From positions 1 through 41,573 of the forward strand of contig CAMVGD010000001.1 of assembly GCA_947166925.1 (NCBI GenBank): a DNA stretch of 41,573 bases. The letters run 5' to 3'. The position numbers were made by a program, and so were the translations under genes. The notes below the pieces were generated by a model. It was given only the letters and a program-made list of their open reading frames with translations. It did no database searches and was not told where the DNA came from. This document shows positions 1 to 29,909 of this stretch, piece after piece. The DNA comes from an uncultured Clostridia bacterium (lineage in GTDB: Bacteria; Bacillota; Clostridia; Christensenellales; CAG-138). Within the stretch, counting starts at the first letter, position 1. Each line of letters opens with the position of its first letter.

Positions 1-153
1 CGAAGCGCGGCCAACCTTGCGATTGTTGTCGCCGTACAGCCCGTGCAGGGAGCCGAATCTACGCACCCGATACCCGTAAAAATCCATTGAAAAATGATCA
101 TTTCTTCGGTTGCCCGGAGAAAGCAACGAGATGTGTTTCTTTCGATTTTTCAC
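1..153 (-). CDS. possible small protein, runs off window start
   Basis: An open minus-strand frame of 51 codons begins at a GTG at 151-153 and is still open at the window edge. An AAGGAAG-like ribosome site lies just upstream, and the GTG overlaps the TGA of the preceding small frame, an arrangement typical of coupled genes. The predicted product starts with a Lys/Arg-rich stretch and I do not recognise it. Other frames here are also open, including plus frame 1 up to the stop near base 90, so coding is uncertain. Confidence 0.25.
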   Translation of the reverse strand, partial: MKNRKKHISLLSPGNRRNDHFSMDFYGYRVRRFGSLHGLYGDNNRKVGRAS

Positions 154-251
154 TTCCTTTCAATCGTTCTGCTCCGTTCCCACAGCCGGAAAATGGTATT
201 TGAACCCTCTTTCCGCCGCGGTGCGATACGATCTTTTACGCTTGTTATCAC
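150..251 (-). CDS. possible 33-aa leader-like peptide
   Basis: A short minus-strand frame starts at a GTG at 249-251 and ends at 150-152, overlapping the start of the next frame by two bases. The product would be basic (several Arg/Lys) and 33 residues long. A GGAGG lies directly against the GTG, which is closer than usual, so either the start or the reading is doubtful. It follows the hairpin at 266-291, which would suit a leader peptide or attenuator, but that is inference. Confidence 0.2.
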   Translation of the reverse strand: MITSVKDRIAPRRKEGSNTIFRLWERSRTIERK

Positions 252-265
252 CTCCAAAAAGGAAA

Positions 266-291
266 AGAAGCCGACGCGCAGATCGGCTTCT
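266..291 (-). terminator. hairpin with T-rich tail on the minus strand
   Basis: AGAAGCCGA at 266-274 pairs perfectly with TCGGCTTCT at 283-291 around an 8-nt loop. Read on the minus strand it is followed by a T-rich run (complement of 256-266). This fits a factor-independent terminator or attenuator for transcription moving left out of the palindrome array. Confidence 0.45.
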
Positions 292-312
292 CTCATCATA
301 ATTTTGCTGTTC

Positions 313-1454
313 AAAAATTCGTGCCATGTTGGCACGAATTTTTACTGCCGGAAATTAGCGCCGAATTGGCGCGCATTTTCAGCCTTGCTTCTATAACTTC
401 GTGCCATGATGGCACGAAGTGTGCTTGTCGGAAATGAGGGACAGCTTGTCCCACATTATGCACACACCCTGTTTGAAATTCCCGACAAGTTGTCGGGAAT
501 TTAGGCAATCAAGAAGCCGATCTGCTCCATCGCAGAAATGTGAGCTAACTTGGCTCAAAATAACCACATCTCAAACTTCCTGCCAACTTGGCAGGAAGTC
601 GGCAGCCGTAAAATACAGATTAACTTGTTCTGAATTATGGCTATCAAACGATCTTGTTTCACTTCGGACCAACTTGGTCCGAAGTTGCGTTATTGGGAAC
701 TTCCCGACAAGTTGTCGGGAAGTTTGACGCGAAGAAAAAGCAGCCCGGTTTGACCTGATTTCTATTCTGGTCTTTCATAAATAAGGACAAGTTGTCCTTC
801 ATTATTTCATGCAACTTCGCGCCAACTTGGCACGAAGTTGACGGTTTCAACTTCAGGACAACTTGTCCTGAAGTGCCCGACATTCAACTTCCGGACAACT
901 TGTCCGAAAGTCCCCGGCTTTCAACTTCCGCCCAACATGGGCGGAAGTTACAGCGCGTTTCGAAAGCCGGGTAACTTGTGGCCAACTTGACCACAAGTTC
1001 CGTATCTGACTTCTGCCCAACCTGGGCAGAAGTTACTGTGCAGAGCCGATAGCCGGATCAACTTGTGCTCAATTTGATCATAAGTGGGGGTTTATAGGGT
1101 TAACTTCTGGTCATGATGGCCAGAAGTTCTTTCTGAAAATTGTGTCCAAGGCGGACACAATTTTACTTCGGACCAAGTTGGTCCGAAGTTGTGATATAAA
1201 ATCAACTTGTGACCATGTTGGTCACAAGTTGAAAAGGCGGGCTCAAAAAGTGTCGCCAAGTTGACGATACTTTTCACTTCGTCCCATCATGGGACGAAGT
1301 GCGTGCGTATGCTGTATGCAACTATAACTTCGTCCCAACTTGGGACGAAGTTCCGTCGGGAAGCATTCGGATCGCTTACAAAAAAAGTCTGGACAAGTTG
1401 ACCAGACTTTTAACTCAGGCAACGGCAAAACAGTGACCATGATGGTCACAGTTT
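313..1454. repeat. array of about 27 covarying short palindromes
   Basis: Read by eye, palindromes are centred at 328, 365, 408, 445, 489, 549, 587, 624, 673, 711, 791, 826, 862, 899, 936, 986, 1021, 1073, 1115, 1150, 1177, 1217, 1260, 1288, 1339, 1397 and 1441. Most have arms of 11-14 bases and a 3-base centre. Outer ends are mostly ACTT and AAGT (a few AAAA/TTTT or AAATT/AATTT), and the inner core is CA, three bases, TG. The four to six bases between vary from unit to unit (for example GTGC, CTGC, GGAC, CCGA, CGCC) while the opposite arm changes to match. Units 365, 549, 624 and 1073 are degenerate. Centres are 27 to 60 bases apart, with one 80-base gap. No intact gene with a ribosome site spans the array. 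This is not a CRISPR array, because neither the repeats nor the gaps are constant. Function unknown. Confidence 0.9.
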
Positions 1455-1526: not shown

Positions 1527-2441
1527 TCAAATTATTTTTGCTTCCGAAAACCCGTAGTCCTCGCCGGAGAATCGTTCGTATGCTTTGCCGATCTTTCGGA
1601 TGCGTTTCAGAACGGCGCTGTGCGTTTGAAAGCCGAGCGCCTTCGCGATCTCCTCAAGCGGCTTGCCCTTCAGCCGCAGCGACAGGATTTTCCGATCCGT
1701 TTCGGTCAGCGTTTGCAGAAACTGCTCCATGTCGATCTTCGCGGCGATATTATCCTCGAACTCCGAGTGCTCATTGGAATGAAGAAGCCCGGCTTCCGCG
1801 CCGTCCATGATCTCATGAATACGCAGTACCTCGCGTGAGAGCGTCGTCGGGTGCTTCGTCCGCGTGTGATACCATCGCTTTTGAAAATCTGCCTTCTGCC
1901 AGCTGTACCGATGCTCGTCAAAGTCCTCAAAGCACGGGTGCTTCTGCACATAGTTGAGCCACTCCCAATACCCGTCCCGCAGCATGACGCGCGGCACGAC
2001 GATCGAAAGGTATGCGTCCACGAGCGCATACGGTATGAACATATGATACCTATCAGGATACGGCTCTGTTTCCTGCAGCCACTGCTCGAGGGAGGGGAGA
2101 ACACCGCAGTCTGTGAGTTCATCGATCCACAGCGACGGGGCATGGGCGACTTTCCAGCACGGGTTATAGCCGGAATAATCTTCCAGTCGACCCTTCAGTC
2201 CCATGTGCGGCCACGCCATATAGGCGTAGGCGTCGATGACGCACTCTCGGAACAGATTGCTTTCGACCTTCCGGATCGTCCCCGGATCCGCGAACAGCCC
2301 CGCGCGCGTGCGCGGCAGCATAAACAGCTCTCTGCCGCAGCGGATCAGAAGTTCTTTCGGAATCATCAGAAACGCCGGAATAAACTCCGCGTTTTTATAT
2401 TCCGAATAACTGCCGTCCTCGCGCTTGATCTGATATCGCAT
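1527..2441 (-). CDS. sigma-70 region 4-like HTH regulator (unnamed family)
   Basis: The predicted 304-aa protein has an unrecognised N-terminal region (about 1-225) rich in aromatic residues, including the stretch YAYMAWPHMGLKGRLEDYSG. A C-terminal segment from about residue 235 reads like sigma-70 region 4: FLQTLTETDRKILSLRL, then LEEIAKALGF and a basic recognition-type helix. I chose the ATG at 2439-2441 because GGAAGGGGG lies 8 bases upstream; the upstream GTG at 2450 would overlap that site. The gene is divergent from the fic-hsd operon. A truncated paralogue lies in the same position beside the second type I operon (24247-25023), which suggests a controller role for restriction operons. 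That role is inferred. It could instead be a non-regulatory protein with an HTH tail. Confidence 0.8.
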   Translation of the reverse strand: MRYQIKREDGSYSEYKNAEFIPAFLMIPKELLIRCGRELFMLPRTRAGLFADPGTIRKVESNLFRECVIDAYAYMAWPHMGLKGRLEDYSGYNPCWKVAHAPSLWIDELTDCGVLPSLEQWLQETEPYPDRYHMFIPYALVDAYLSIVVPRVMLRDGYWEWLNYVQKHPCFEDFDEHRYSWQKADFQKRWYHTRTKHPTTLSREVLRIHEIMDGAEAGLLHSNEHSEFEDNIAAKIDMEQFLQTLTETDRKILSLRLKGKPLEEIAKALGFQTHSAVLKRIRKIGKAYERFSGEDYGFSEAKII

Positions 2442-2483
2442 GCCGAACACCCCCTTCCGGACGATACTTTTTCTATGCTAACC

Positions 2484-2673: not shown

Positions 2674-3729
2674 ATGCGAACATTTGATTTCAAAACCGAA
2701 TATCCGAAACTCCTGCAGCCGGACATTGTTGCCATGCTGACGGCGATCCATGAGCAAAAAGGCGAGCGATCCGTACAGCCGGAAAGCGAAGCCGTCGAGC
2801 AGCTTCTGGAAATCGCAATGATCCAGAGCACCGAGGCGTCCAACCGCATTGAAGGCATCATCACCACGGACGACCGCCTGAAAAAGCTCGTGCAGCAAAA
2901 GACCATGCCGAAAACCCGCAGCGAGCGCGAGATCGCGGGCTATCGTGATGTGCTTACAACAATTCATGAAAAATATAAATACATTCCGCCCCGTCCGTCG
3001 ATGATCCTGCAGCTGCACCGCGATCTGTACAAATTCAGCGGCAAGTCCATCGGCGGCAGCTTCAAGGCGGCGGACAACGTGATTTCGGAGGAACTGCCGG
3101 ACGGCACGTGCCGCGTGCGCTTTGTGCCGCTGCCCGCATGGGAGACGCCGCAGGCGATGGACGATCTCTGCACAGCGTTCGACAGCGCGATCAAAGATCC
3201 GGAGTGCGATCCGCTGCTGCTGATCCCGATGTTCATTTTGGATTTCCTTTGCATCCATCCGTTCGCGGACGGCAACGGTCGCATGAGCCGGCTTCTGACG
3301 CTGCTGTTACTGTACCGCGCAGGCTACACCGTCGGGAAATACATCAGTCTCGAAAAGCTGATCGCGGACAGCAAGGAAACCTATTACGAAGCGCTTGCCG
3401 AAAGCTCGCAGGATTGGCACGAGGGAACGAACAATTACGCTCCGTTCGTGCGGTATTTGTTGGGCATCATCGTTGCGGCGTATCGCGCGTTCGACGATCG
3501 ACTGAAGCTTTTGAAAAACAGCGGCAATTCCAAATCGGCGCGCATCCGCGAGCTGATTCGCGCGCATATCGGTACAATCACCAAGAGCGAGATCATGGCG
3601 CAGTGCCCGGACATCAGTCAGGTGACGGTCCAGCGCGCGCTGGCGGAACTATTGGAACGCGGCGAGATCATCAAGATCGGCGGCGGACGCTACACATCCT
3701 ATACATGGAATCGGGAGGCAGAAAAATGA
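2674..3729 (+). CDS. Fic family protein with C-terminal winged-helix-like region
   Basis: The 351-aa protein carries the Fic motif HPFADGNGR at about 195-203, with the catalytic His and the nucleotide-binding Gly/Asn/Arg. Fic enzymes usually transfer AMP from ATP to a hydroxyl side chain of a target protein. An inhibitory motif of the S-x-x-x-E-G form (SNRIEG, residues 56-61) lies N-terminal, so this is a self-inhibited (class II type) Fic. The last 70 residues contain a helix-turn-helix-like stretch (TKSEIMAQCPDISQVTVQRA) and a small wing, common in Fic/DUF4172-like proteins. The start at 2674 has GTGAGGA upstream; the longer frame would begin inside the promoter. Its stop overlaps the hsdM ATG (ATGA), so the two are coupled. 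It may regulate or tune the restriction operon, which is inference. Confidence 0.9.
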   Translation: MRTFDFKTEYPKLLQPDIVAMLTAIHEQKGERSVQPESEAVEQLLEIAMIQSTEASNRIEGIITTDDRLKKLVQQKTMPKTRSEREIAGYRDVLTTIHEKYKYIPPRPSMILQLHRDLYKFSGKSIGGSFKAADNVISEELPDGTCRVRFVPLPAWETPQAMDDLCTAFDSAIKDPECDPLLLIPMFILDFLCIHPFADGNGRMSRLLTLLLLYRAGYTVGKYISLEKLIADSKETYYEALAESSQDWHEGTNNYAPFVRYLLGIIVAAYRAFDDRLKLLKNSGNSKSARIRELIRAHIGTITKSEIMAQCPDISQVTVQRALAELLERGEIIKIGGGRYTSYTWNREAEK

Positions 3730-5222
3730 TCACGGGAGAACTGAAAAACAAAATCGACGCTCTGTGGAACGTCTTTGCGGCGGGCGGCATCGTAAATCCG
3801 CTGACGGTCGTGGAGCAGATGACCTATCTGATGTTCATCCGCGACATCGACGACGCGGACAACCTCAAGGCAAAGGAAGCCGCCATGCTCGGCCTGCCGT
3901 ATGAGAGCATTTTCGCCGAAGAAGTCGAGATCGGCGGGAACAAGGTCAACGGCACACAGCTCAAGTGGAGCGTCTTCCGCGATTTCCCGGCGGGCAAGAT
4001 GTATTCCGTCGTGCAGGAGTGGGTCTTCCCGTTCATCAAAAATCTGCATTCCGACAAGAACAGTGCGTATGCGAAATACATGGACGACGCGATCTTCATG
4101 ATCCCGACGCCGCTGATGCTCTCGAAGGTCGTGGACAGCATGGACGCGATCTATGAGCTGATCGCAAAGCAGAAGGAGACCGACACGAAGGGCGACGTCT
4201 ACGAATACATCCTCTCGAAGATCTCCGCGTCCGGCAGAATCGGGCAGTTCCGCACGCCGCGCCACATCATCCGCATGATGGTCGAGTTGATGGACCCGCA
4301 GCCCGACGAGACCGTTTGCGACCCCGCCTGCGGCACCGCGGGCTTTCTGGTGGCGACCGCGGAGTATCTGAACGAGCCGGAGCGCCGCGCGTTCCTGTTC
4401 AACCGGCAGAAGAAGGATCATTACATGAACCACATGTTCCACGGCTTCGATATGGACCGCACCATGCTGCGCATCGGCGCCATGAACATGATCGCGCACG
4501 GCATCGAAAACCCCTATATCGAATACCGCGACAGTCTGTCCGATCAGAACCCCGACCGCGAGAAGTATTCGCTGATCCTTGCAAATCCGCCGTTTAAGGG
4601 CTCGCTTGATGCGGACATCGTTTCGACGGATCTTTTGAAGATTACAAAAACCCGCAAGACCGAGCTTTTGTTCCTTGCGCTGTTTTTGAAAATGCTGCGC
4701 ACGGGCGGGCGGTGCGCGTGTATCGTGCCGGACGGCGTGCTGTTCGGCAGCAGTACCGCGCACCAGGCGATCCGCAGGGAGCTGATCGAAGGAAACCGTC
4801 TCGAAGCCGTCATTTCCATGCCCTCCGGCGTGTTCAAACCGTATGCGGGCGTTTCCACCGCGGTGCTGATCTTTACCAAAACCGGGCACGGCGGCACGGA
4901 TAAGGTCTGGTTCTATGATATGCAGGCGGACGGCTTCTCTCTGGACGACAAGCGCACGCCCGTCAAAGAGAATGACATCCACGATATCGTTAAGCGCTTC
5001 CATGCACTCGACGCCGAAGCCGACCGTCCCCGCACGGCTCAGTCCTTCCTCGTACCGAAATCCGAAATCGCGGCAAACGGCTACGATCTTTCGATCAACA
5101 AGTATAAGCAGACGGACTATAAGCCCGTCGAATACCCTCCGACAAGCGAAATCCTTGCGGAGCTGAACGACCTCGAAGCGCAGATCGCCGCCGGGCTGAA
5201 GGAATTGGAGGGGGTGGTGTGA
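3726..5222 (+). CDS. hsdM: type I restriction-modification methyltransferase subunit M
   Basis: This 498-aa protein is an adenine-N6 DNA methyltransferase that works with HsdS to methylate, and with HsdR to restrict, DNA. It has an N-terminal helical HsdM_N-like region (1-150), then the SAM-binding motif I DPACGTAGFL at about 199-208 and the catalytic motif IV NPPF at about 287-290. Length is normal for the family. A longer open frame extends upstream, but it runs through the fic gene in another phase; the start at 3726 overlaps the fic stop and gives a normal HsdM N-terminus. The stop overlaps the hsdS start. The gene is GC-rich, unlike the downstream hsdS and cargo. Confidence 0.95.
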   Translation: MITGELKNKIDALWNVFAAGGIVNPLTVVEQMTYLMFIRDIDDADNLKAKEAAMLGLPYESIFAEEVEIGGNKVNGTQLKWSVFRDFPAGKMYSVVQEWVFPFIKNLHSDKNSAYAKYMDDAIFMIPTPLMLSKVVDSMDAIYELIAKQKETDTKGDVYEYILSKISASGRIGQFRTPRHIIRMMVELMDPQPDETVCDPACGTAGFLVATAEYLNEPERRAFLFNRQKKDHYMNHMFHGFDMDRTMLRIGAMNMIAHGIENPYIEYRDSLSDQNPDREKYSLILANPPFKGSLDADIVSTDLLKITKTRKTELLFLALFLKMLRTGGRCACIVPDGVLFGSSTAHQAIRRELIEGNRLEAVISMPSGVFKPYAGVSTAVLIFTKTGHGGTDKVWFYDMQADGFSLDDKRTPVKENDIHDIVKRFHALDAEADRPRTAQSFLVPKSEIAANGYDLSINKYKQTDYKPVEYPPTSEILAELNDLEAQIAAGLKELEGVV

Positions 5223-6415
5223 TGGCTTGGGAGTATCGCAGAATTGGAGATGTCTGCACGGTGGAACGGGGCGGTTCTCCTCGTCCGATTGACCAGTATA
5301 TTACTGATGAGCAAGATGGAATTAACTGGATTAAAATCGGTGATACAACAGACTCCATGTTTATAACCTCGACTGCACAAAAGATTAAACCGGAAGGCGC
5401 AAAGAAATCCAGATATGTACAGCCCGGCGATTTTCTGCTGACAAACTCGATGAGTTTCGGTCGTCCTTATATACTCAAAATCGACGGCTGCATACACGAC
5501 GGTTGGCTTGTACTGCGTGATGAGAATTATTACTTTGACAAAAGATTCTTGTATTATTACTTGAGTTCACCGGCTGTTTACCGCATGTTTCAAAACATGG
5601 CAGTCGGTGGAGTGGTGAACAACCTAAACAGCGAAATGGTTAGGAAATTGGTCGTGCCTGTCCCTTGCAAAGAAGAACAAGAACAAATAGCAACCGTTCT
5701 TGATAGAATCAACGACTTAATCTCCCTGCGGAAAAAGCAGCTGCAAAAGCTGGATGATCTCGTCAAAGCCCGCTTTGTCGAGATGTTTGGAGATCCTGTT
5801 GATAATGCAAAGCGGTGGCCTACAAAACCACTTCTGGAGATGGGAAATTGCAAGAACGGGATGAATTTCAGTAACAATGAAACAGGGATAAGTATTCATT
5901 GCTTGGGAGTAGGAGACTTTCAAAACAAAACTGTCATCACGGATGTTAATTCTTTACCAATGATTTCACTCAGAGAATCTCCATCTAAAGAGTATCTGCT
6001 TCACGACGGAGATATAGTTTTCGTTCGGTCAAATGGGAATAAGGCATTAGTTGGCAGGTGCGTTGCTGTCTATCCAGGAAATATACCAACCACCTTTAGC
6101 GGTTTCTGTATCCGCTATCGCAAACAGGATAATGCCACTACTATTCCATACCTGCTTCGAGTTCTAAAAACAGATTCGATTCGGACAAAAATGGCGGGAC
6201 GAGGCGCGAACATTCAGAATTTGAATCAACAAATCCTGGGGACGTTATTTATCCCTATCCCTCCAATAGATTTACAGGAACAATACGCCGTTTTCTCCGA
6301 TCGGGTCGACAAATCAAAAGTGACAATACAACAGGGGATTTACATACTTGAACAAATGAAACAGACAATGATGCAAAAATTCTTTGGTGAGATAGATTCA
6401 GGTATTGCGTTATGA
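5222..6415 (+). CDS. hsdS: type I restriction-modification specificity subunit S
   Basis: This 397-aa protein supplies sequence recognition for the type I complex. It shows two target-recognition halves. The first (about 1-140) is followed by a conserved helical spacer around 140-185 containing EEQEQIATVLDRINDLI. The second recognition half and a C-terminal helix rich in Gln/Met follow. The ATG at 5222 overlaps the hsdM stop and is served by GGAGGGGGTGG. It becomes markedly more AT-rich than hsdM, especially in the second half, as expected for a fast-evolving recognition subunit. Its stop overlaps the next gene's ATG. Confidence 0.93.
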   Translation: MAWEYRRIGDVCTVERGGSPRPIDQYITDEQDGINWIKIGDTTDSMFITSTAQKIKPEGAKKSRYVQPGDFLLTNSMSFGRPYILKIDGCIHDGWLVLRDENYYFDKRFLYYYLSSPAVYRMFQNMAVGGVVNNLNSEMVRKLVVPVPCKEEQEQIATVLDRINDLISLRKKQLQKLDDLVKARFVEMFGDPVDNAKRWPTKPLLEMGNCKNGMNFSNNETGISIHCLGVGDFQNKTVITDVNSLPMISLRESPSKEYLLHDGDIVFVRSNGNKALVGRCVAVYPGNIPTTFSGFCIRYRKQDNATTIPYLLRVLKTDSIRTKMAGRGANIQNLNQQILGTLFIPIPPIDLQEQYAVFSDRVDKSKVTIQQGIYILEQMKQTMMQKFFGEIDSGIAL

Positions 6416-6999
6416 ACAAATACGACAAGCACTACTTCGAACGATATGCACGATTGACATTGTATTGCGGCTTTCCTAAATGGAAAGACCATTTTGTGAG
6501 AAGCGAACGACCGGACTTGCAGAATGAAATAGATGGCGTCGGGATCGAAGTTACAAGTTCAACCCCGTCTCATATTAGAGAGGTCGAGGCGTTTGGACAG
6601 AAGATTCTCGGTAAAACAGTATCCGGTGCGGACGAAAAAAGATTTCGGGGAGATTTGTTCCTTACCTCTGAGAGAGTAGCATTTGCTTATTCTCCTATAA
6701 AGGGACTTGAAGATTCAGATAAAAGCCCGGAGATCATTTCCGCAATTTCGCATAAACGCGATATATGGGAAGGATACAAAGAGTTTAATGTGCGGGGAGT
6801 GTACATTTTTACAGGGACCAGCATCATCGATGAAGAAATGCTTGAAAAGGTTGAGAAATCCGAGGCGTTTTCTTACTTTCAGCTAGTTTTTATCAATGCG
6901 ATGGATAAGATGTATTATTATCAAAACGGATGGAAGAAAAAAGAGTTCACCGATGAAGAATTGGTGGAATTCAAGAAAAAAGCTCTTGCAGGGGAGTGA
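6412..6999 (+). CDS. unnamed protein, possible PD-(D/E)XK-like fold
   Basis: A 195-aa protein translationally coupled to hsdS (ATGA overlap). I do not recognise a named family. Around residues 33-50 there is RPDLQNEIDGVGIEVTSS. An acidic residue in a PD, then a hydrophobic strand ending in E-V-T, resembles a restriction-nuclease-like core with D35 and E46, but the usual Lys is a Thr. The C-terminal third contains aromatic-rich helices and a Lys/Glu-rich tail. Because it sits inside an hsd operon it may be a defence effector or an accessory to specificity; this is inference from position and a partial motif. Confidence 0.75.
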   Translation: MNKYDKHYFERYARLTLYCGFPKWKDHFVRSERPDLQNEIDGVGIEVTSSTPSHIREVEAFGQKILGKTVSGADEKRFRGDLFLTSERVAFAYSPIKGLEDSDKSPEIISAISHKRDIWEGYKEFNVRGVYIFTGTSIIDEEMLEKVEKSEAFSYFQLVFINAMDKMYYYQNGWKKKEFTDEELVEFKKKALAGE

Positions 7000-7280
7000 T
7001 GAACCTGGTAATCTTGTTCGAAAAGCTACAAACGAGTTTGATAAGTATCAAACAAGAGTTTCATAAAATAGAGTCCAGATAACACGAATATGTTGCCTGA
7101 TAGCTTAGTACAAAATCACTTTGGGTGAGTAATAAAACTGCGTTTTTGTCGAATAGCAACGGACTTTTTCGTTTAATGTGGTGTTTATACAATTGAGGTT
7201 ATCGACATGACAAGCTGAAACTTAAACAAAATGAGAATTGACATGATAATACTTTGAGTAAACATTGGAGGACAATTTCG
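7000..7280. other. AT-rich gap with a perfect 8-bp inverted repeat
   Basis: No gene is seen between the hsdS-coupled gene and the ApeA-like gene. GTTTGATA at 7036-7043 pairs with TATCAAAC at 7046-7053 across AG. It could be an operator or a weak hairpin. A TTGACA lies near 7237, but a matching -10 is not clear. The gap suggests that the following cargo genes may have their own promoter. Confidence 0.4.
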
Positions 7281-8606
7281 ATGAATCGTTTTGAAAAGCA
7301 GATCACGGGTATTTTTCCATCTACAGTTGGGAATATGTGCTTTCTTGCTGATGGGTTTAGCTTCACGATAATAGATAATCAAATAGAACCTTTAAGACGT
7401 GTTGAGATAGAACCTCAGGATTCGTTTTTGCGCGGAAAGACAAGAGATGGGCACGATATAGGAGTGTATATTGGAAATCATAAAGCAGAGGTTTACGGAG
7501 TATATCGGTGTGAAACAGGAGCTTATGTTGTATCAATAAACAATATGGATAAAACCGATATTAGTGTTTATTATGGGATTGAATTTGTAGGTGGTACACT
7601 TAATAAGCTATATAGACCATATTTTAAAAACTTTGGAGTTGATGAACAGGAAGATGAAAAAATAGAGTTTTCTATAATAGTACACGATATTACTATTCAA
7701 ATTGAAATAGGCTACTCTATCATTTTCGATAGGCAAAAAGAAGAACATACGAATGAGGAAGCTGTTTATTGCAGAATGACATTTCCTAGTGCTCAAAACC
7801 TAGGAAGCTTCTTTCAACATTACAACGCTCTAAAAGATTTAATATCCTTTATGGTGTATCGACAAAATGTGGGCTTTGATGACATTTATCTGTTATCGCA
7901 ACCAAAGAAGATTAACGGCATCGAATACCAAAATCATCTGGCTGCAATGTTTATTTATTATGATAATCCTCTTACAGAGAAGGATAGTTTTACTTGTATT
8001 CATTTTGATGAAATCAAGCCTTCTTTAGCATCCTTTTTAACGTTATTGTATAACAATGAAGAACGGAAACCTATTTATTCTTCGGGTTATATTCCACAAG
8101 ATGATCATGATGCGTTTAGAATGACAAATTCAAAAGTTAGGGAAATCTGTTCTGCAATAGAATGCGAACTATCACACACGAAAGTGGGAGATGATGAAGT
8201 TGATTCTAATCTACAAAATCTGATTAATAGTGTTAAGACTCTGATCAAGAACCATCAAACAGGGCAACAGAAACTACCGGATAAGGTTTACAGTAACATA
8301 TTTGGTAGTATGAATTATTGGGATATACCTGCTAGCGATAGAATTTTTGCTTTGTATCAAAAACATGAGCAAAACGTAGTGAAACTTAGGCCGGTACATT
8401 TTCCAATGACAAAAGAATCGGTAGCAGCTTTCGTAAAGTATAGAAATGATATAACACATGGTAGATACAGGACACTTGAAAAAGAGATTGCATATGTCGG
8501 ATTTGCTCTTATTTGTTTAATATACTGTTGCGTGCTTGAAAGAATCGGATTGGATTCTCAAATGATTAATAAGATCACAAATATACCAGGGTTACTAAAG
8601 CGTTAA
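7281..8606 (+). CDS. ApeA-like HEPN-domain anti-phage protein
   Basis: The 441-aa product has a long beta-rich N-terminal region (about 1-230) and a helical C-terminal region with the HEPN ribonuclease motif R-x4-H, seen as RNDITH at about 388-393 and followed by GRYR. This layout and size match ApeA-type abortive infection proteins, in which a HEPN RNase domain is thought to attack host RNA on infection. The ATG at 7281 is preceded by GGAGGA with about 8 bases spacing; the longer frame starting at a TTG at 7254 lacks a site. The gene is strongly AT-rich compared with hsdM and hsdR, a sign of separate origin. A second protein of the same plan lies at 33246. The assignment rests on architecture, not alignment. 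Confidence 0.72.
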   Translation: MNRFEKQITGIFPSTVGNMCFLADGFSFTIIDNQIEPLRRVEIEPQDSFLRGKTRDGHDIGVYIGNHKAEVYGVYRCETGAYVVSINNMDKTDISVYYGIEFVGGTLNKLYRPYFKNFGVDEQEDEKIEFSIIVHDITIQIEIGYSIIFDRQKEEHTNEEAVYCRMTFPSAQNLGSFFQHYNALKDLISFMVYRQNVGFDDIYLLSQPKKINGIEYQNHLAAMFIYYDNPLTEKDSFTCIHFDEIKPSLASFLTLLYNNEERKPIYSSGYIPQDDHDAFRMTNSKVREICSAIECELSHTKVGDDEVDSNLQNLINSVKTLIKNHQTGQQKLPDKVYSNIFGSMNYWDIPASDRIFALYQKHEQNVVKLRPVHFPMTKESVAAFVKYRNDITHGRYRTLEKEIAYVGFALICLIYCCVLERIGLDSQMINKITNIPGLLKR

Positions 8607-8639
8607 GAGATATGATATAACAAAAATCGGGAGGCATTT

Positions 8640-9455
8640 ATGAACGAAAAAGAAACAGGATTAGAGCTTATAAAAGATGCGGTAAAAGGAGTAGCAGATG
8701 ATGCGTATCAGGATGTTGTTCATCCTGTGGCAAAACCTACGGGGCAACTGGTAGGTCTGGTGCCGCGCACTATAAAAGCAGCGCTCGCACCTTTAGAAAA
8801 GTGGATATTGCATAGGGAATATAGCGTTGAAGAAACAAAAAAACTATTAGAAGAAAAGCTGAAAGATGTTCCGGCGGAACAAATCGTAACACCGGAAGCT
8901 TACGTGGCGGTGCCTGCTATGCAAAACATTAGTTACTGCATGGACAATGATGAACTTAGAAATTTGTATGCAAATTTATTGGCAAAATCAATGACAGAGG
9001 TCAATAAGTCTAACGTTCATCCAAGCTATGTTGACATAATCAAGCAATTAACACCGGATGAAGCAAAGCTTTTGCGCTATATTGCAACGAATTTCTATAG
9101 TGCACCTCTTGCAACGCTTTCGCTTAGAAGGGAAAATAGTCAAGGACATTATATTACGTTATATCAACATTACTCTGACGCGGGAGAAAAGGCAAACTGT
9201 GAAAAACCGTTTAATATACAAGCCATGTTTGATAATCTTGTTAGGCTTGGCTTATTAGAATTCAGTCCAAAAGGAACATACTTAACAAACAAGGAACTAT
9301 ATAACCCTTTGAAAAATCATCCGAACATTGTTATGTTAAAAGCCAGAATCATGGCAAGGATTAAAGACGACTACAACATTATTAAAGATGAAGAAGGATA
9401 TGTAAGCTTGACGGAATTCGGAAAACAGTTTTGTAAAATCTGTGTTTTAGACTGA
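8640..9455 (+). CDS. Abi-alpha (DUF4393) family protein
   Basis: The 271-aa protein has the recognisable DUF4393/Abi-alpha pattern. The N-terminal region contains VHPVAKPTGQLVGLVPRTIK, a hydrophobic amphipathic segment near residues 30-60. The middle contains ELRNLYANLLAKSM and VHPSYVDIIKQLTPDEAKLL. The C-terminal part ends in a likely winged-helix (GYVSLTEFGKQFCKIC). Family members are linked to abortive infection, but their biochemical activity is not settled. The ATG follows GGGAGG. It is AT-rich and sits 33 bases after the ApeA-like gene and 27 bases before hsdR, so it is part of the cargo block between hsdS and hsdR. Confidence 0.85.
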   Translation: MNEKETGLELIKDAVKGVADDAYQDVVHPVAKPTGQLVGLVPRTIKAALAPLEKWILHREYSVEETKKLLEEKLKDVPAEQIVTPEAYVAVPAMQNISYCMDNDELRNLYANLLAKSMTEVNKSNVHPSYVDIIKQLTPDEAKLLRYIATNFYSAPLATLSLRRENSQGHYITLYQHYSDAGEKANCEKPFNIQAMFDNLVRLGLLEFSPKGTYLTNKELYNPLKNHPNIVMLKARIMARIKDDYNIIKDEEGYVSLTEFGKQFCKICVLD

Positions 9456-9482
9456 TTATTTATTTAAATGAAGGAGGTCATC

Positions 9483-12400
9483 ATGACCAACTTTGATTTC
9501 TTACAGAACGATCCGCAGTTTGCGGGATTTGCGGAGACGGCAATCAGCGCGGAGAAGCTGTACGCCGTCGACGCCGTTGCATGCGCGATCGGCTGCCGCC
9601 GGGCGATGGAGTTTGCCGTCAAGTGGATGTATTCGGTGGACGCGGCGCTTAGTGCGCCGTATCAGGACACGCTGAATGCTTTGATGAGCACCGAGGATTT
9701 CCGCAGCGTGGTCGACCGCGATCTTTACACGCGCATGGACTATATCCGGCGCGTCGCGAACACCGCTGCGCATTCGGGCAAAAAGATCACGCGGGAGCAG
9801 GCGGCGCTTGCGCTTGAGAACCTCTTTTGGTTCATGGACTTCGTTGCGTGCTGCTATGCAGAGCATTACGAGCCGCGGGAGTTCGATCCGTCTTTGCTGA
9901 CGCAGGAAGATCCTTCGGCTGCGCCTCAGGATGACACAAAGGAAGCGGAACAGAAGCTTTCGGCGTTGCTTGCGGAAAACGCCGCGCTGAAAGCGGAGCT
10001 GACCGCGCGCAGAGAGGAGCAGCAGCAAAGCTATGTGCCGAAGCCGCTGGAGCTTTCGGAATACAAGACGCGCAAGCTGTATATCGACGCGATGCTCACC
10101 GATGCGGGCTGGAAAGAGGGCAAGGACTGGCAGAACGAGGTCGAGCTTTTCGGCATGCCGAACAAGAGCGAGGTGGGCTATGCGGACTATGTGCTCTACG
10201 GCGACGACGGCAGGCCTTTGGCGGTGATCGAAGCGAAGCGCACCTGTGTGGACGTATCGAAGGGGCGGCAGCAGGCAAAGCTGTACGCCGACATCCTTGA
10301 ACAGAAATACCACCGCCGTCCGGTGATCTTCCTCACAAACGGCTTTGACACGCGCATTCAGGACAATCTGTATCCCGAGCGCAGGTGCGCCGCGATCTGG
10401 TCGAAGCGCGATCTTGAAAAGCTGTTCAATCTGCAGACGATGCGCACGAGCTTAAAGAATGTGCTCGTGAACCGCGACATTGCGGGGCGCTACTATCAGG
10501 AAGGCGCGATCAAGGCGGTATGCGACGCGTTCGGAACGAAGAACCGGCGCAAAGCGCTGCTCGTCATGGCGACCGGTTCCGGCAAGACGCGCACGGTGAT
10601 CGCGCTGTGCGACGTGCTTCTGCAGCACGGTTGGGTGAAGAATATCCTGTTCCTTGCCGACCGCAATTCTCTGGTGACGCAGGCGAAGCGCAATTTTGTG
10701 AACCTGCTGCCCGATCTTTCCGTGACAAACCTGTGCGAAGAGAAGGACAATTATACCGCGCACTGCGCCTTTTCGACCTATCAGACGATGATGAACGTGA
10801 TCGACGCGGTCGAGGATGAGCAGGGCAAGCTGTTTACCTGCGGGCATTTTGATCTGGTCATCTGCGACGAGGCGCACCGTTCGATCTACAACAAGTATCG
10901 CGATATCTTCAACTATTTCGACGCGCCTCTGGTGGGTCTGACCGCGACGCCGAAGGACGAGATTGACAAGAACACATACGAGATCTTCGACCTCGAAAAC
11001 GGCGTCCCGACCTACGGCTACGAGCTTGCGCAGGCGGTCAAAGACGGGTATCTTGTGGATTTCATTTCGGTCGAAACGACGCTGAAATTCATTCAGCAGG
11101 GCATCGTGTACGACGATCTGTCCGACGAGGACAAGGCGGCGTATGAGGACACGTTTGTCGATGAAAACGGCGAGCTGCCGGAGCGGATCGCGTCGTCGGC
11201 GCTGAACGAGTGGATCTTCAACGAGGACACGATCAAAGAGGTGCTGCATGTGCTGATGACCGAGGGGCTGAAGATTGACTACGGCAACAAAATCGGCAAG
11301 ACGATCATCTTTGCCAAGAGCCACGCGCACGCGGAGAAGGTTCTGGAGATCTTCAACCACGAATATCCGCAGCTTTCCGGCTACGCAAAGGTGATCGACA
11401 ACTACATGACCTACGCGCAGAGCGCGATTGACGAGTTTTCCGATCCGAAGAAGCTGCCGCAGATCGCAATTTCGGTGGATATGCTCGACACCGGCATCGA
11501 CGTGCCGGAGGTGCTGAATCTCGTCTTTTTCAAGAAGGTCATGAGCAAGGCGAAGTTCTGGCAGATGATCGGGCGCGGGACGCGGCTTTGTCCGGGGCTT
11601 CTGGACGGCGCGGACAAGCAGAAGTTCTATATATTTGATTTTTGCGGCAACTTTGAGTTCTTCCGCATGAACAAAGGAAGACCGACCGCAAATATGATCG
11701 CGCTGCAGGGAGCGATCTTCCATCTGAAAGCGCAGATTGCTTATAAACTGCAGGATATCGCCTATCAGACGCCGGAGCTGATCGCATTCCGCAAGACGCT
11801 GGTGGACGACATGGTGAAAAAGGTGCGTGAATTGAACCGCGAGAACTTTGCGGTCAAACAGCATCTGAAATATGTGGAACTGTATTCCGATCCGGAAAAC
11901 TATAAAGCGCTGACGTATGAGAACACGCTTGTGATCGGGCAGGAGCTTGCGCCGCTGATCATGCCGGAGGAGGATGACGCGAAGGCGCTGCGCTTCGACG
12001 CGCTGCTGTACGGGATCGAGCTTGCATACCTAGCAGGAAAGAAGTACGGCAAGGCGAGAAGCGATCTAATGAAGAAGGTCAGCGCAATTGCCAACGTCGC
12101 CAATATTCCGGAGATCATGGCGCAGTCGGAGCTGATCAACAAGATCCTGCATACCGATTACGTGGAGAACGCAGGCATCAATGAATTTGAGAATATTCGT
12201 GAAAATCTGCGTGATCTGATCAAGTATATCCCGGTTGCCAAGATTCGATACGATACGAATTTCGACGACGAGATTCTTTCGATCGAATGGAAGGAGTCGG
12301 AGCTCGAGAACGACGATCTGAAGAACTACAAGGCAAAGGCGGAATTCTATGTGCGGCAGCACCGCGATCATGTCGTAATCGCAAAGCTTCGCAGCAATGT

Positions 12401-12779
12401 GCCGCTGACCGCAATCGATGTGCAGGCGCTCGAACAGATCCTTTGGAGCGAAGTCGGAACGAAAGCCGAATATGAGGCGGAGTACGGAAAGAAACCGCTC
12501 GGCGAATTTGTGCGCGAGATCGTCGGTATGGACATGAATGCGGCGAAGGAGGCGTTTGCGGCGTATCTGAACGACGCGAATCTCGACAGTCGACAGATCT
12601 ACTTTGTGAACCAGATCGTGGAATACATCGTCCACAACGGCATCATGAAGGATCTGTCCGTGCTGCAGGAGCCGCCGTTTACGGATCAAGGCAGTATTGT
12701 CGATATCTTTACCGATCTCACGGTCTGGCAGGGCATTCGCAAAGCGATCGAACGGGTGAATTCCAACGCCGTGGCGTGA
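9483..12779 (+). CDS. hsdR: type I restriction enzyme endonuclease/translocase subunit R
   Basis: The 1098-aa subunit R cuts unmethylated DNA after ATP-driven translocation. An N-terminal DUF4145-like helical domain (1-130) contains ANTAAHS, a HEPN-like signature. A Glu/Ala coiled segment (about 155-182) leads to the nuclease core, with D235 and E250-A-K252 (VIEAKR). The SF2 motor follows: Walker A GSGKT at 365-369, DEAH at 462-465, GLTATP, and a motif VI QMIGRGTRL. AAGGAGGT precedes the ATG at 9483. GC content rises sharply again here, matching hsdM and contrasting with the cargo, which supports the view that the cargo was inserted into an older hsd operon. Confidence 0.95.
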   Translation: MTNFDFLQNDPQFAGFAETAISAEKLYAVDAVACAIGCRRAMEFAVKWMYSVDAALSAPYQDTLNALMSTEDFRSVVDRDLYTRMDYIRRVANTAAHSGKKITREQAALALENLFWFMDFVACCYAEHYEPREFDPSLLTQEDPSAAPQDDTKEAEQKLSALLAENAALKAELTARREEQQQSYVPKPLELSEYKTRKLYIDAMLTDAGWKEGKDWQNEVELFGMPNKSEVGYADYVLYGDDGRPLAVIEAKRTCVDVSKGRQQAKLYADILEQKYHRRPVIFLTNGFDTRIQDNLYPERRCAAIWSKRDLEKLFNLQTMRTSLKNVLVNRDIAGRYYQEGAIKAVCDAFGTKNRRKALLVMATGSGKTRTVIALCDVLLQHGWVKNILFLADRNSLVTQAKRNFVNLLPDLSVTNLCEEKDNYTAHCAFSTYQTMMNVIDAVEDEQGKLFTCGHFDLVICDEAHRSIYNKYRDIFNYFDAPLVGLTATPKDEIDKNTYEIFDLENGVPTYGYELAQAVKDGYLVDFISVETTLKFIQQGIVYDDLSDEDKAAYEDTFVDENGELPERIASSALNEWIFNEDTIKEVLHVLMTEGLKIDYGNKIGKTIIFAKSHAHAEKVLEIFNHEYPQLSGYAKVIDNYMTYAQSAIDEFSDPKKLPQIAISVDMLDTGIDVPEVLNLVFFKKVMSKAKFWQMIGRGTRLCPGLLDGADKQKFYIFDFCGNFEFFRMNKGRPTANMIALQGAIFHLKAQIAYKLQDIAYQTPELIAFRKTLVDDMVKKVRELNRENFAVKQHLKYVELYSDPENYKALTYENTLVIGQELAPLIMPEEDDAKALRFDALLYGIELAYLAGKKYGKARSDLMKKVSAIANVANIPEIMAQSELINKILHTDYVENAGINEFENIRENLRDLIKYIPVAKIRYDTNFDDEILSIEWKESELENDDLKNYKAKAEFYVRQHRDHVVIAKLRSNVPLTAIDVQALEQILWSEVGTKAEYEAEYGKKPLGEFVREIVGMDMNAAKEAFAAYLNDANLDSRQIYFVNQIVEYIVHNGIMKDLSVLQEPPFTDQGSIVDIFTDLTVWQGIRKAIERVNSNAVA

Positions 12780-21320: not shown

Positions 21321-21364
21321 ATGTGAAACTGGCGTGCTTAAATTCGGCTTTTAAGGGGGAGAAC

Positions 21365-23182
21365 ATGATTAGAGCAGATATCGTTTCTACTGTCGGGAGA
21401 GAATACCTTACCAGTAATATTGAGAATGACGAATTCAGTTATCCCAAAGCATTTGCAGCTGCATCTTTACCGTTCGTACCAATTTGCAATAGCGCGGGGC
21501 GCAAATTTGAAAAGCTGGATATCCGGTTTCAAAAAGATAATGTATCCGTGCTTATAGAAACAAAAACGAGTTTCGTTGATGCAGACGAAGCACAGTTATC
21601 CGCGTATGTTGAATACGAAAAAGCACTTACTGGTAATAAAATTGTCGCTATTCTTGCCAACACCACAAATGATAATGTCAAAGTGTGGCGAGGCGTTGTT
21701 TCCGATGGTGACTTAATGCCAAAAGAAACAGCTCTTCGCACAATGGATGAGTACGTTGATTTCTACACATCCAAGATCAACGATAAAGAAAGGGTGATGC
21801 AAAACACTTATAAACTCAATGAACTGTTGCATCGCCATAGCATCCCTGAGAAGCTCCGCAGTCAGTTTGTCGGCACCTGTTTGCTTGCTTTGAAGAATGG
21901 TCTTGACTATTCTACCCCTTCATTGACTGCAGCACAGATTAGAACCCGAATAAAAGAGGTTTTAGAAGACCTGCTTAATTCAGATATAAACAAAGCCGAA
22001 AAGCTGGCATTGCTTAACCGAAATGTTCTCGGTAATCAGTATGTCAGACAACTTACAATTTCTGCTTTCAGAGAAATACTCAAATTTATCGAAGATAACA
22101 TTCTGCCGTTCATCAATGACAAGAGTACTTCAGGTCAAGATTTATTGAACCTATTTTTCATTACCTTCAATAAGTATGTTGGCAAGTCTGATAAGAATCA
22201 GGCTTTTACTCCCGACCATATAACGGATTTTATGGCAAAAGTTACGGGAGTAAACAAGCATTCGGTCGTCCTTGATCCTTGCTGTGGTAGCGGCTCGTTC
22301 TTAGTTCGGGCAATGACCCAGGCTTTGGATGACTGCGCTACTGCCGCCGAGCAGGAAGAAGTGAAAAAACATCAAATATTCGGCATTGAGTTTGATGAAA
22401 ATGTGTACGGGCTTGCTACAACAAATATGCTTATTCACTCTGATGGCAATTCAAACATTCGTCAAGGAAGCTGCTTTGCAATGGCTGATTGGATCAAAGA
22501 AGCTAAACCTAATGTAGTTTTGATGAATCCCCCATACAACGGACAGCGTATTCATTTGCCTGCAAGTTATGTTAGTACTTGGGGGCGGGATAAAAAAGAA
22601 GATCCATCAAAAGGATTGTTCTTTGTAAAATATATTGCTGATACGCTTAATTCGATCAACCATCAAGCAAAACTGGCGGTGCTACTTCCGGTTTCTTGTG
22701 CTATTGGTACCAGCGGTGAGATTGCCCGGCTGAAGAGAGAAATCCTTGAAGAAAATACGCTTGATGCAGTGTTCACATTGCCAATTGATATTTTCCACCC
22801 GGGAGCAAGCGCTTCAGCTTGCTGCATGTTGTTTAAGATCGGGACGAAGCATAATGATATTTCAAATCCAGATACCTTCTTTGGCTATTGTCGTGATGAT
22901 GGCTTTAAAAAGAAAAAGAATCTTGGACGAGTTGAACAAGTTGATTCATTCACGGGAAAGAGTCGTTGGGTTGATATTGAAAATGAATGGATTGAATTGT
23001 ATAGAAATCGTCGTTCTATTGATGGTCAATCGGCTACTCATAAAGTCACTGGCGACGACGAGTGGTTATGCGAAGCTTATATGAAGACCGATTATACAAA
23101 GATGTCGGAGCATGATTTTCAACAGACAATCAATGAGTTTCTTGCATATCTCGTCAAGGAGGGACGTATATATGAAACTTGA
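21365..23182 (+). CDS. BcgI-like type IIB restriction-modification subunit (nuclease plus N6-adenine methylase)
   Basis: The 605-aa protein joins a PD-(D/E)XK nuclease region to an adenine methyltransferase. The nuclease core shows D52 in KLDIRF and E65-T-K67 in VLIETKT. A helical connector spans about 140-290, then SAM motif I DPCCGSG at 304-310 and motif IV NPPY at 388-391. The size and the partner S protein match BcgI subunit A, which cuts on both sides of its site and needs a separate specificity subunit. AAGGGGGAG precedes the ATG at 21365. Its end overlaps the start of the S gene by 11 bases. A type I-like methylase with an N-terminal nuclease is the alternative reading. Confidence 0.82.
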   Translation: MIRADIVSTVGREYLTSNIENDEFSYPKAFAAASLPFVPICNSAGRKFEKLDIRFQKDNVSVLIETKTSFVDADEAQLSAYVEYEKALTGNKIVAILANTTNDNVKVWRGVVSDGDLMPKETALRTMDEYVDFYTSKINDKERVMQNTYKLNELLHRHSIPEKLRSQFVGTCLLALKNGLDYSTPSLTAAQIRTRIKEVLEDLLNSDINKAEKLALLNRNVLGNQYVRQLTISAFREILKFIEDNILPFINDKSTSGQDLLNLFFITFNKYVGKSDKNQAFTPDHITDFMAKVTGVNKHSVVLDPCCGSGSFLVRAMTQALDDCATAAEQEEVKKHQIFGIEFDENVYGLATTNMLIHSDGNSNIRQGSCFAMADWIKEAKPNVVLMNPPYNGQRIHLPASYVSTWGRDKKEDPSKGLFFVKYIADTLNSINHQAKLAVLLPVSCAIGTSGEIARLKREILEENTLDAVFTLPIDIFHPGASASACCMLFKIGTKHNDISNPDTFFGYCRDDGFKKKKNLGRVEQVDSFTGKSRWVDIENEWIELYRNRRSIDGQSATHKVTGDDEWLCEAYMKTDYTKMSEHDFQQTINEFLAYLVKEGRIYET

Positions 23183-24182
23183 CGTAGATAAGTGGGGTAA
23201 TTTCAAAATCGCTGATATTTTTCCCGTATTGCAAAACGGGAAAGCTAATCAAGGCTTGCTGAGCGAAGGAAATGATTGTTTCTATGTTGGCGCAAAAAAA
23301 GATGACAATGGTGTCATGCTTCATTGCGCCTATGATTCTGATTTAATTCAAAAAGGTAATTGCATCATATTCATTTGCAATGGGCAGGGTTCTGTCGGTT
23401 ATGCCAATTATATGGATGTTGATTTTATTGGCACAACAGATATAGTGGCGGGATATAACGATAATCTAAACAGATATAATGGACTATTTATTGCAACTGT
23501 TTTGTGTCAAGAACGCCCCAAATATTCTTTTGGTCGGAAATGGAAAACTCATTTGAAAGAAACTGTCATAAAACTGCCCCAAACATCAGAAGGTAATATG
23601 GATTGGGAGTATATGGAACAATATGTAAAATCTCTCAACTATAAACCTTTATCAACTACAAATAGGCTGGGCACCAGGCATAAACTTTTTATTGACAAAT
23701 GGAAAGATTTTTATCTTTCTGATTCGGGCCATCATCCCGGGCTATTCAAGATAGAAAGCTGCAAGTGCGGTTGCGCAGGTGATTTAGAAGATGGTGACGA
23801 AATAAACTATATAGGTGCTAAGAAAAGCGACAATGGAGTTATGCGTCGTGTGATGCGTGTGGATGATTTGGTTTCAAAAGGTAATGGGATTTTGTTTATC
23901 TGCGACGGCGAAGGTTCTGTAGGCTATGCGAATTACATGGATCAAGATTTTATTGGCTCAACGACAACGTCCATTGGGTACAATCCGAAACTTAATAAGT
24001 ATAATGCATTGTTCATCGTTACAATTATTGATCAAGAAAAATACAGGTTTTCGTATGGGAGAAAATACCGTGCACATATTGAAGAAGCGATGGTAAAACT
24101 CCCTGTTGACGCATACGGAAATCCAGATTGGAATTATATGGAAAACTATATCAAATCTCTACCATATGGGGATAGAATCTGA
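23172..24182 (+). CDS. BcgI-like specificity subunit
   Basis: The 336-aa protein consists of two similar halves, each with a W-x-x-F-x-x-x-x start, a YVGAKKDDNGVM or YIGAKKSDNGVM element, GSVGYANYMD, DFIG(T/S)T, a Y-N-x-L-N-x-Y-N element and FSYGRK or YSFGRK, ending in DW-x-YME-x-Y-(V/I)KSL. This internal duplication is that of BcgI-type S subunits, one recognition domain per half-site. The ATG at 23172 has GGAGGG 7 bases upstream and overlaps the methylase stop. A strong terminator follows at 24219. Confidence 0.85.
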   Translation: MKLDVDKWGNFKIADIFPVLQNGKANQGLLSEGNDCFYVGAKKDDNGVMLHCAYDSDLIQKGNCIIFICNGQGSVGYANYMDVDFIGTTDIVAGYNDNLNRYNGLFIATVLCQERPKYSFGRKWKTHLKETVIKLPQTSEGNMDWEYMEQYVKSLNYKPLSTTNRLGTRHKLFIDKWKDFYLSDSGHHPGLFKIESCKCGCAGDLEDGDEINYIGAKKSDNGVMRRVMRVDDLVSKGNGILFICDGEGSVGYANYMDQDFIGSTTTSIGYNPKLNKYNALFIVTIIDQEKYRFSYGRKYRAHIEEAMVKLPVDAYGNPDWNYMENYIKSLPYGDRI

Positions 24183-25066: not shown

Positions 25067-25106
25067 CCAGTATAAACTGTTTTCTGTACGAAAAAGAGGA
25101 TGTCGA
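25067..25106. promoter_or_regulatory. 40-bp conserved block with inverted repeat, copy 2
   Basis: The same block as 2484-2523, at equal length. Here the repeat reads TTTTC at 25080-25084 and GAAAA at 25090-25094 around TGTAC, so the A-T pair of copy 1 has become T-A on both arms. TATACT for the minus-strand gene is kept. Confidence 0.6.
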
Positions 25107-25172
25107 TGGATTTTTTTGTAATTTGCGGTGTTATATTTATTATAGAAAAATCTCGCTGTCCTATAAAAGGCA

Positions 25173-25201
25173 TTGTGAAAATGCACGAAAAATGGTATAA
25201 T
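25173..25201 (+). promoter_or_regulatory. promoter of the second hsd operon
   Basis: TTGTGA at 25173-25178 and TATAAT at 25196-25201 have a 17-base spacer. The -35 and the sequence around it resemble the BcgI-like promoter at 21275. Confidence 0.75.
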
Positions 25202-25231
25202 AATATGAATAAATATAGGCAGGAGCGACGT

Positions 25232-28170: not shown

Positions 28171-28172
28171 GT

Positions 28173-28844: not shown

Positions 28845-28869
28845 ATGATTGAAATGTTGGAGGTTAAAA

Positions 28870-29889: not shown

Positions 29890-29909
29890 CGTAATAGGAG
29901 AGCATTAAC

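Follow-up and report, generated by a model that had tools for sequence, protein, structure and literature searches.

At the start of the 41,573-nt stretch of clostridial DNA analysed here (the window) lies an array of palindromes that we interpret, with a probability of a little under 0.8, as a multi-specific set of mimics of parS-like ParB-binding sites by which an integrative mobilizable element (IME) would attract the ParB proteins of many alternative helper elements. Palindromes of the same type are located inside parB genes, their stem bases covary with residues of the encoded ParB, the stems of array and parB sites overlap, and IME genes accompany the array. ParB proteins would bind to the array, the elements bearing the parB genes would be the helpers, and the IME would gain a benefit.

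Array of palindromes in the window

Between positions 316 and 1453, 27 odd-centred palindromes of 25 bp were counted when up to three of the 12 base pairs were allowed to mismatch (Table 1), in agreement with the approximately 27 reported in the first-pass annotation. Nine units are perfect, while 19, 24 and 27 show at most one, two and three mismatches, compared with means of 0 (perfect), 0, 0.06 and 0.6 (maximum 4) in dinucleotide shuffles of the array region (100 per mismatch tolerance). In the alignment of the 27 units, 93.2% of the cells are paired (67.4% when shuffled) and 70 cells carry two-sided changes (20.5 when shuffled), which occur at nine of the 12 pairs (7.1 on average when shuffled, with nine or more in 18 of 500 shuffles). 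The covariation score of 0.605 versus 0.143 in shuffled units was reached by none of 500 shuffles and collapsed once the partners were slid by one to three columns. The stems described at first pass do covary, and the array bears out the accompanying proposal of selection on dyad symmetry instead of one fixed sequence.

Other details of that annotation had to be revised. The unit consists of two 12-nt arms around a single base (12-1-12) and not of 11–13-nt arms around three bases. Complete ACTT/AAGT ends are present in just 16 of the 27 units and the CA-N3-TG core in 23, and therefore neither can be called constant; AATT, AATG, AAGT and AACA also occur as unit ends. Dismissing CRISPR and REP elements was justified. 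A CRISPR array was rejected as the stems differ between units, the mean column identity is 72% and no near-identical repeats exist. No single conserved sequence is dispersed over the genome: a looser motif allowing AATT ends gave 21 matches in the same genome, 18 of them in the array, and the other three at C24:7992-8016, at C141:8-32 and in C15. The C24 and C141 sites lie within parB-like genes, in the part directly preceding the helix-turn-helix, and the AT-rich match in C15 is probably due to chance; a REP family was rejected on this basis.

The strong two-sided covariation would also be expected of a structured non-coding RNA with many covarying hairpins, and folding as RNA or single strand had been suggested. 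However, the 182 distinct array units contain 49 G-T and 46 A-C mismatches and hence display no strand-specific wobble tolerance, no Rfam match was obtained at gathering scores, and the stems of the palindromes in parB genes vary together with residues of ParB (see below). A structured RNA family was rejected, as there is neither a known family nor G-U-tolerant covariation, and we consider an RNA function of the array highly improbable.

Table 1. Array units and adjoining features of the window; sequences in the remarks are stem bases unless marked as ends.
Feature	Position	Strand	Remarks
Mobilization-region side of array	1..312		bases 1-55 identical to the end of contig C114 (55 bases)
Array of 27 palindromic parS-like units	316..1453		25 bp each, start-to-start spacing 27-80 bp
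Unit 1	316..340		AATT ends, stem CGTGC; nearly identical to palindrome in parB of contig C24, same genome
Unit 2	353..377		3 mismatches
Unit 3	396..420		CGTGC
Unit 4	433..457		AGGGA/TGGGA
Unit 5	477..501		CCCGA
Unit 6	537..561		TGAGC, 3 mismatches; no parB match in set
Unit 7	575..599		CCTGC; no parB match in set
Unit 8	612..636		3 mismatches; no parB match in set
Unit 9	661..685		CGGAC
Unit 10	699..723		CCCGA
Unit 11	779..803		AAGGA; no parB match in set
Unit 12	814..838		CGCGC/CGTGC
Unit 13	850..874		CAGGA
Unit 14	887..911		CCGGA/TCGGA; no parB match in set
Unit 15	924..948		CCGCC
Unit 16	974..998		GTGGC/GTGGT
Unit 17	1009..1033		CTGCC
Unit 18	1061..1085		GTGCT/ATGAT
Unit 19	1103..1127		CTGGT/CTGGC
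Unit 20	1138..1162		GTGTC; no parB match in set
Unit 21	1165..1189		CGGAC, equals unit 9 in opposite orientation
Unit 22	1205..1229		GTGAC
Unit 23	1248..1272		AAGT/ACTT ends
Unit 24	1276..1300		CGTCC
Unit 25	1327..1351		CGTCC
Unit 26	1385..1409		AAGT/ACTT ends, CTGGA/CTGGT
Unit 27	1429..1453		GTGAC
307-aa protein, sigma-70 region 4-like helix-turn-helix (below Pfam cut-off)	1527..2450	-	relatives in 7/13 array loci including the window

Palindromes within parB genes

A collection of 298 ParB-like reading frames was reduced to 216 distinct ParBs of mobile elements by removing 24 frames without a helix-turn-helix motif and 58 duplicates. These proteins have the sequence and fold of CTPase-type ParBs. 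An in-frame palindrome with at most two of 12 pairs mismatched is present in 191 of the 216 genes, whereas 25 lack a good one; 76 of the 191 are perfect, and these comprise 37 distinct stems. The palindrome is located in the linker just N-terminal of the helix-turn-helix, in an identical codon phase in 191 of 191 genes and with its centre 22–26 residues before the RYIRL-type motif in 173. When these nine codons were recoded at random with synonymous ones, a palindrome (up to two mismatches) arose in 132 of 38,200 trials; elsewhere in the frames, 15 of 189,624 positions had one. This rarity points to selection on the DNA and not on the peptide alone. In the AlphaFold model of one ParB (L102; mean pLDDT 81.4), residues 155–161 within the palindrome-encoded stretch are predicted as a low-confidence loop that connects a long helix with the helix-turn-helix.

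No second copy of the site (up to three mismatches over 19 nt) was found in 187 of 191 parB loci within the stretch available. Three named plasmids carry the in-parB site, with one mismatch in one and three in the other two; two are typed as non-mobilizable and one as conjugative. In the plasmid with one mismatch, NZ_CP051681.1 (complete, 174.5 kb), the inner 13 bp occur nowhere except in parB. A parA gene adjoins parB in L102, L022 and L098, the gene order in L102 being RepA_N, ParA, ParB, and on two plasmids parB is near replication-initiator genes; in L138, the parB neighbours that were tested did not include a ParA. A ParB branch formed by L494 and L499 (with L490 and L498) has sites of the form CGCGGGACA... 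without ACTT ends, and L499 possesses three extra site copies within 2 kb.

Covariation of stem bases and ParB residues

For 191 sequences (effective number 122.8), each of 285 protein columns was compared with the five stem bases by mutual information, leaving out the residues encoded by the palindrome and the 25 of 216 ParBs without a good palindrome. Thirteen of the 14 top-scoring columns fall between 14 residues before and five residues after a conserved Ser of the recognition helix. The summed excess was highest at residues +2 (1.93) and +1 (1.27) relative to this Ser and at residues -12 (1.51) and -10 (1.27), followed by the gap-rich positions -13 (0.79) and -14 (0.72) and by residue +5 (0.74), compared with a column background with a median of 0.05 and a 95th percentile of 0.27. 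Residues -12 and -10 track the outer stem bases v1–v3, and residues +1 and +2 track v3–v5.

Pairwise tests, restricted to perfect stems, gave the same picture. Among ParB pairs less than 40% identical, the inner triplet agrees in 22 of 33 that have the same residues at +1/+2 and in 81 of 1,219 with different residues; at 40–50% identity, the respective values are 137 of 213 and 134 of 3,276, and 168 random pairs of distant columns, used as control for the triplet at this identity, gave a mean of 0.082 and a maximum of 0.274. Where the residues at -12/-10 agree, v1v2 is also identical in 54 of 76 pairs, versus 189 of 814. According to position and to the alignment with solved ParBs, residues -10 and +1 correspond to Q162 and R173 of Caulobacter ParB, both of which are named as contacting parS in PMC7383237.

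Because of its location inside the gene and the covariation of its stem bases with DNA-reading residues, the parB palindrome is very probably a parS-like binding site of the ParB encoded by the same gene, and the five variable stem bases appear to set its specificity class. It thus combines two properties of parS-type sites, namely the position at the parAB locus (in frame inside parB in 191 of 216) and a sequence that corresponds to the residues with which the cognate ParB reads DNA. One ParB-domain protein (L486, 585-aa frame) lacks an internal palindrome and carries residues of the GGA class; its contig stretch contains two GGA-class palindromes (2543 and 4718), the class predicted by these residues, which we take as an out-of-sample sign of the stem-residue code. 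Part of the L486 motif is shared by L205, L220 and L228, which likewise have no internal palindrome.

Relation between array units and parB sites

Array units were counted at nine loci (L081–L084 left out), requiring a CA/TG-like core and at least three of five stem pairs. An identical 12-nt half-site is common to some parB in 90 of the 225 units, which are not independent as orthologous arrays are counted separately, compared with a mean of 17.9 and a maximum of 29 in 500 runs of a permuted control. In the window, this holds for 11 of 27 units, 13 of 27 differ from an entire parB site by no more than 2 nt, and half-stems recur in the parB set in 21 units and in none of the other six. At the level of distinct perfect array stems, 20 of 31 occur in the parB set and 11 match no parB there; the uniform expectation for this overlap is 2.45, and position shuffling gave a mean of 10.8, with the observed value reached in 1 of 5,000 shuffles. 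The window alone is weakly enriched (8 of 12 stems versus 4.74 position-shuffled, reached by 203 of 5,000; with the smaller first parB set, 6 of 12 stems, a value equalled in 843 of 5,000 shuffles).

Among ParBs from the family of the window, 61 of 81 have at least one and 45 of 81 both half-stems in the arrays; for ParBs of other sources, the numbers are 79 and 66 of 110. Given these similar rates, there is no clear sign that the arrays follow the local parB set. In both arrays and parB genes, symmetry is lost at the same arm position, 13, where A is preferred (162 of 225 array units, 143 of 191 parB). The idea of a diversifying recognition array tied to the neighbouring restriction island came close in its first half, while the tie for which there is evidence leads to parB genes of other mobile elements and not to restriction.

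Since units are found both between and within genes, a selfish family of palindromes (REP or Rickettsia-palindrome-like) might be considered, or an origin from decayed parB genes. Against this, the in-gene copies lie in frame in the parB linker in the one codon phase mentioned above, and the commonest base at arm position 14 is A in arrays but T in parB. Furthermore, the centres CAACTTG and CAAGTTG are about equally frequent in arrays (76 and 65) but biased in parB (23 and 116), as expected for a coding sequence. An origin of this kind has, in our judgement, hardly any probability.

Distribution and conservation of the arrays

A second genome of the genus contains an orthologous array (L078), which is 92% identical over window positions 1–1353 and has 35 units by the same count, so that about eight are missing from the window copy near 1354–1382; the absent block corresponds to L078 6429–6852. 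Long arrays were found in G074 (L078), G064 (L079), G066 (L080), G039 (L058, L064), G042 (L059), G046 (L060) and G045 (L061), and smaller palindrome groups at L081–L084. The nine arrays counted have 11–39 units, some being cut by contig ends. Units are better conserved than spacers in nine of nine comparisons of orthologous arrays, which share sequences among them, and by at least 0.10 in six (for example, 0.893 versus 0.708; smallest gap 0.973 versus 0.968). Unpaired drift of the arms in relatives had been named as evidence against selection on pairing. Orthologous arrays do keep their pairing, but one-sided changes outnumber two-sided ones in their pairwise comparisons, with 19 one-sided and no two-sided differences between the window and L078.

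ACTT-type matches are present in 43 of 103 genomes of the family, and the backward control pattern in four. Of the 26 single-match loci that were inspected, 23 have it in frame in a parB gene, the exceptions being L073, L087 and L096. A two-unit pattern was detected in 22 of 396 genomes of an order sample and 20 of 398 of a phylum sample, mostly with one or two matches each. In these two samples, at least five matches were restricted to G000, G039, G045 and G046, all of the window's family, and G398 of another family of the order. The whole array gave no match when compared with phages and plasmids, and G060, which has a small array group, yielded no ParB at E <= 1e-60.

Two further loci, L062 (G030 C74, 3717–10145) and L063 (G016 C23, 3239–7660), contain palindromes of mostly the CGGGA class at distances of 0.06–3 kb, in L062 on an element with a serine recombinase, a relaxase and a CD1107-like protein; this layout resembles dispersed parS sites and not an array. 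A second core class, CCANTGG, is present in L081–L084 and several parB loci, where the parB linker has Pro and not Gln.

The carrier element

Contig C114 of the same genome, the end of which recurs at the start of the window (Table 1), encodes a relaxase and a large serine recombinase. Its alignment with L078 covers 3,692 bases at 94.9% identity, the relaxases are 93% identical, and in L078 MobC lies between relaxase and array. Across 13 array loci, relaxase-family proteins were found in eight, MobA/MobL-type proteins in three more and a recombinase in seven, in terms of blastp clusters of which some members were checked against Pfam; contig ends truncate many of these loci, and genes beneath longer antisense frames can be missed with the simple gene picking used. 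ParB had no match in the array loci, which are partial. Judged by this gene content, the carrier of the array is an IME. Like SGI1, it combines recombinase and mobilization genes (C114, L078) with sites matching ParB sites of other elements (90 of 225 units) and, in the partial loci, no ParB of its own.

The sigma-like protein encoded at 1527–2450 is a probable regulator of the element. Its gene and that for MobC adjoin the array, and the units might accordingly be operators for one of these proteins. A single protein, however, is not expected to select so many different arm-matched stems, nor would half-site sharing with parB genes elsewhere be expected, and we regard such an operator array as very unlikely.

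Further downstream, the window is rich in defence genes (2617–34670), including those for a Fic protein and ApeA-like, Abi_alpha and HipA-like proteins, with three full or partial type I restriction gene sets around 3108–12779, 21323–24182 and 25100–33128. The restriction genes look like cargo.

Proposed function of the array

An IME depends on the conjugation machinery of another element. In the most likely explanation, plasmids and mobile elements of this bacterial group often encode a ParB with its own 25-bp site in parB, in the codons of a flexible linker, and the IME strings together mimics of many specificity classes. Whichever helper is present, its ParB would load on the array unit of the matching class, and the excised IME could use ParA and ParB of the helper for its own positioning and segregation. 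By competing for ParB, the array may at the same time disturb or destabilize the helper. Having one or two units for each class is consistent with elements that seemingly possess a single site, in parB.

The array could instead serve helper sensing, in that an incoming ParB spreads from it over the nearby mobilization promoter and oriT region and switches excision or transfer of the IME on or off. Its position between the mobC/relaxase side and the sigma-like regulator gene would suit this function, and several IMEs are triggered by regulators of their helper (PMC5704250), but about 27 sites seem too many for a switch. Sensing is a rather unlikely main function. Less probable still is a defensive decoy that mainly titrates ParB and thereby expels or excludes incoming elements, the IME's own partition being irrelevant. 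Extra parS copies in SGI1 do destabilize the helper (PMC10954446), and genes of restriction and abortive-infection type abound in the window. On the other hand, one or two units per class should form a weak titrant unless the IME replicates, and the IME requires its helper for movement. Pay-offs in sensing and defence would use the same sites as partition.

Returning to the use of helper partition systems by the IME, the idea can be extended, with about even chances of being correct, to a parasitic element that keeps an evolving "address book" of helper centromeres, which are self-referential since the site lies inside the gene of its reader. The site is mostly 22–26 codons away from the reading helix; site and reader would therefore evolve and move together as a single cassette, which would allow incompatibility classes to emerge quickly. 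If the reading as parS mimics holds, parasitism of partition systems by IMEs extends from one helper family to many, and an odd repeat array is explained without RNA or CRISPR. The 191 natural ParB-site pairs offer a source for reading a protein-DNA recognition code, and the sequence tag might allow helper and parasite elements to be paired from genome data alone.

Comparison with known systems

CRISPR arrays, CsrA/RsmA sponge RNAs and REP elements are arrays of short repeats or hairpins with constant loops. The array described here differs from CRISPR by the absence of a constant repeat with variable spacers, from CsrA/RsmA sponge RNAs by the absence of an RNA wobble signature and from REP elements by the absence of a single conserved sequence. 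In the open-licence literature (preprints excluded), no report of a multi-specific parS array or of an in-gene parS class with a recognition code was found, and SGI1 was the sole close precedent for an IME with parS arrays or for a parS located within parB of such elements.

The principle of partition hijacking is already known from SGI1, and parS families with constant ends and variable arms from repABC plasmids. DR1 and DR2 of SGI1 are parS-like sites that bind ParB of the IncC helper, stabilize the IME and destabilize the helper, as documented by EMSA and stability data (PMC10954446). In both cases, an IME carries copies of a foreign element's parS or, in the window, of a putative parS-like site. 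SGI1 has two copies of one specificity, directed at one plasmid family in Gammaproteobacteria, whereas the window-type arrays comprise 11–39 units of many specificities in a clostridial group. The parS family GTTNNNNGCNNNNAAC of repABC plasmids likewise consists of centromere-like palindromes in which ends and core are constant while the arms vary; such sites exert incompatibility (PMC9040568). Those sites are described there as 16 bp long and even-centred, in contrast to the odd-centred 25-bp palindromes here, which lie inside the parB coding sequence. Chromosomal ParB-parS and Noc-NBS share with the present system the ParB fold and specificity residues at matching helix-turn-helix positions (PMC7383237); they represent two nearly fixed sites, compared with the 37 distinct perfect stems in 191 parB genes reported here.
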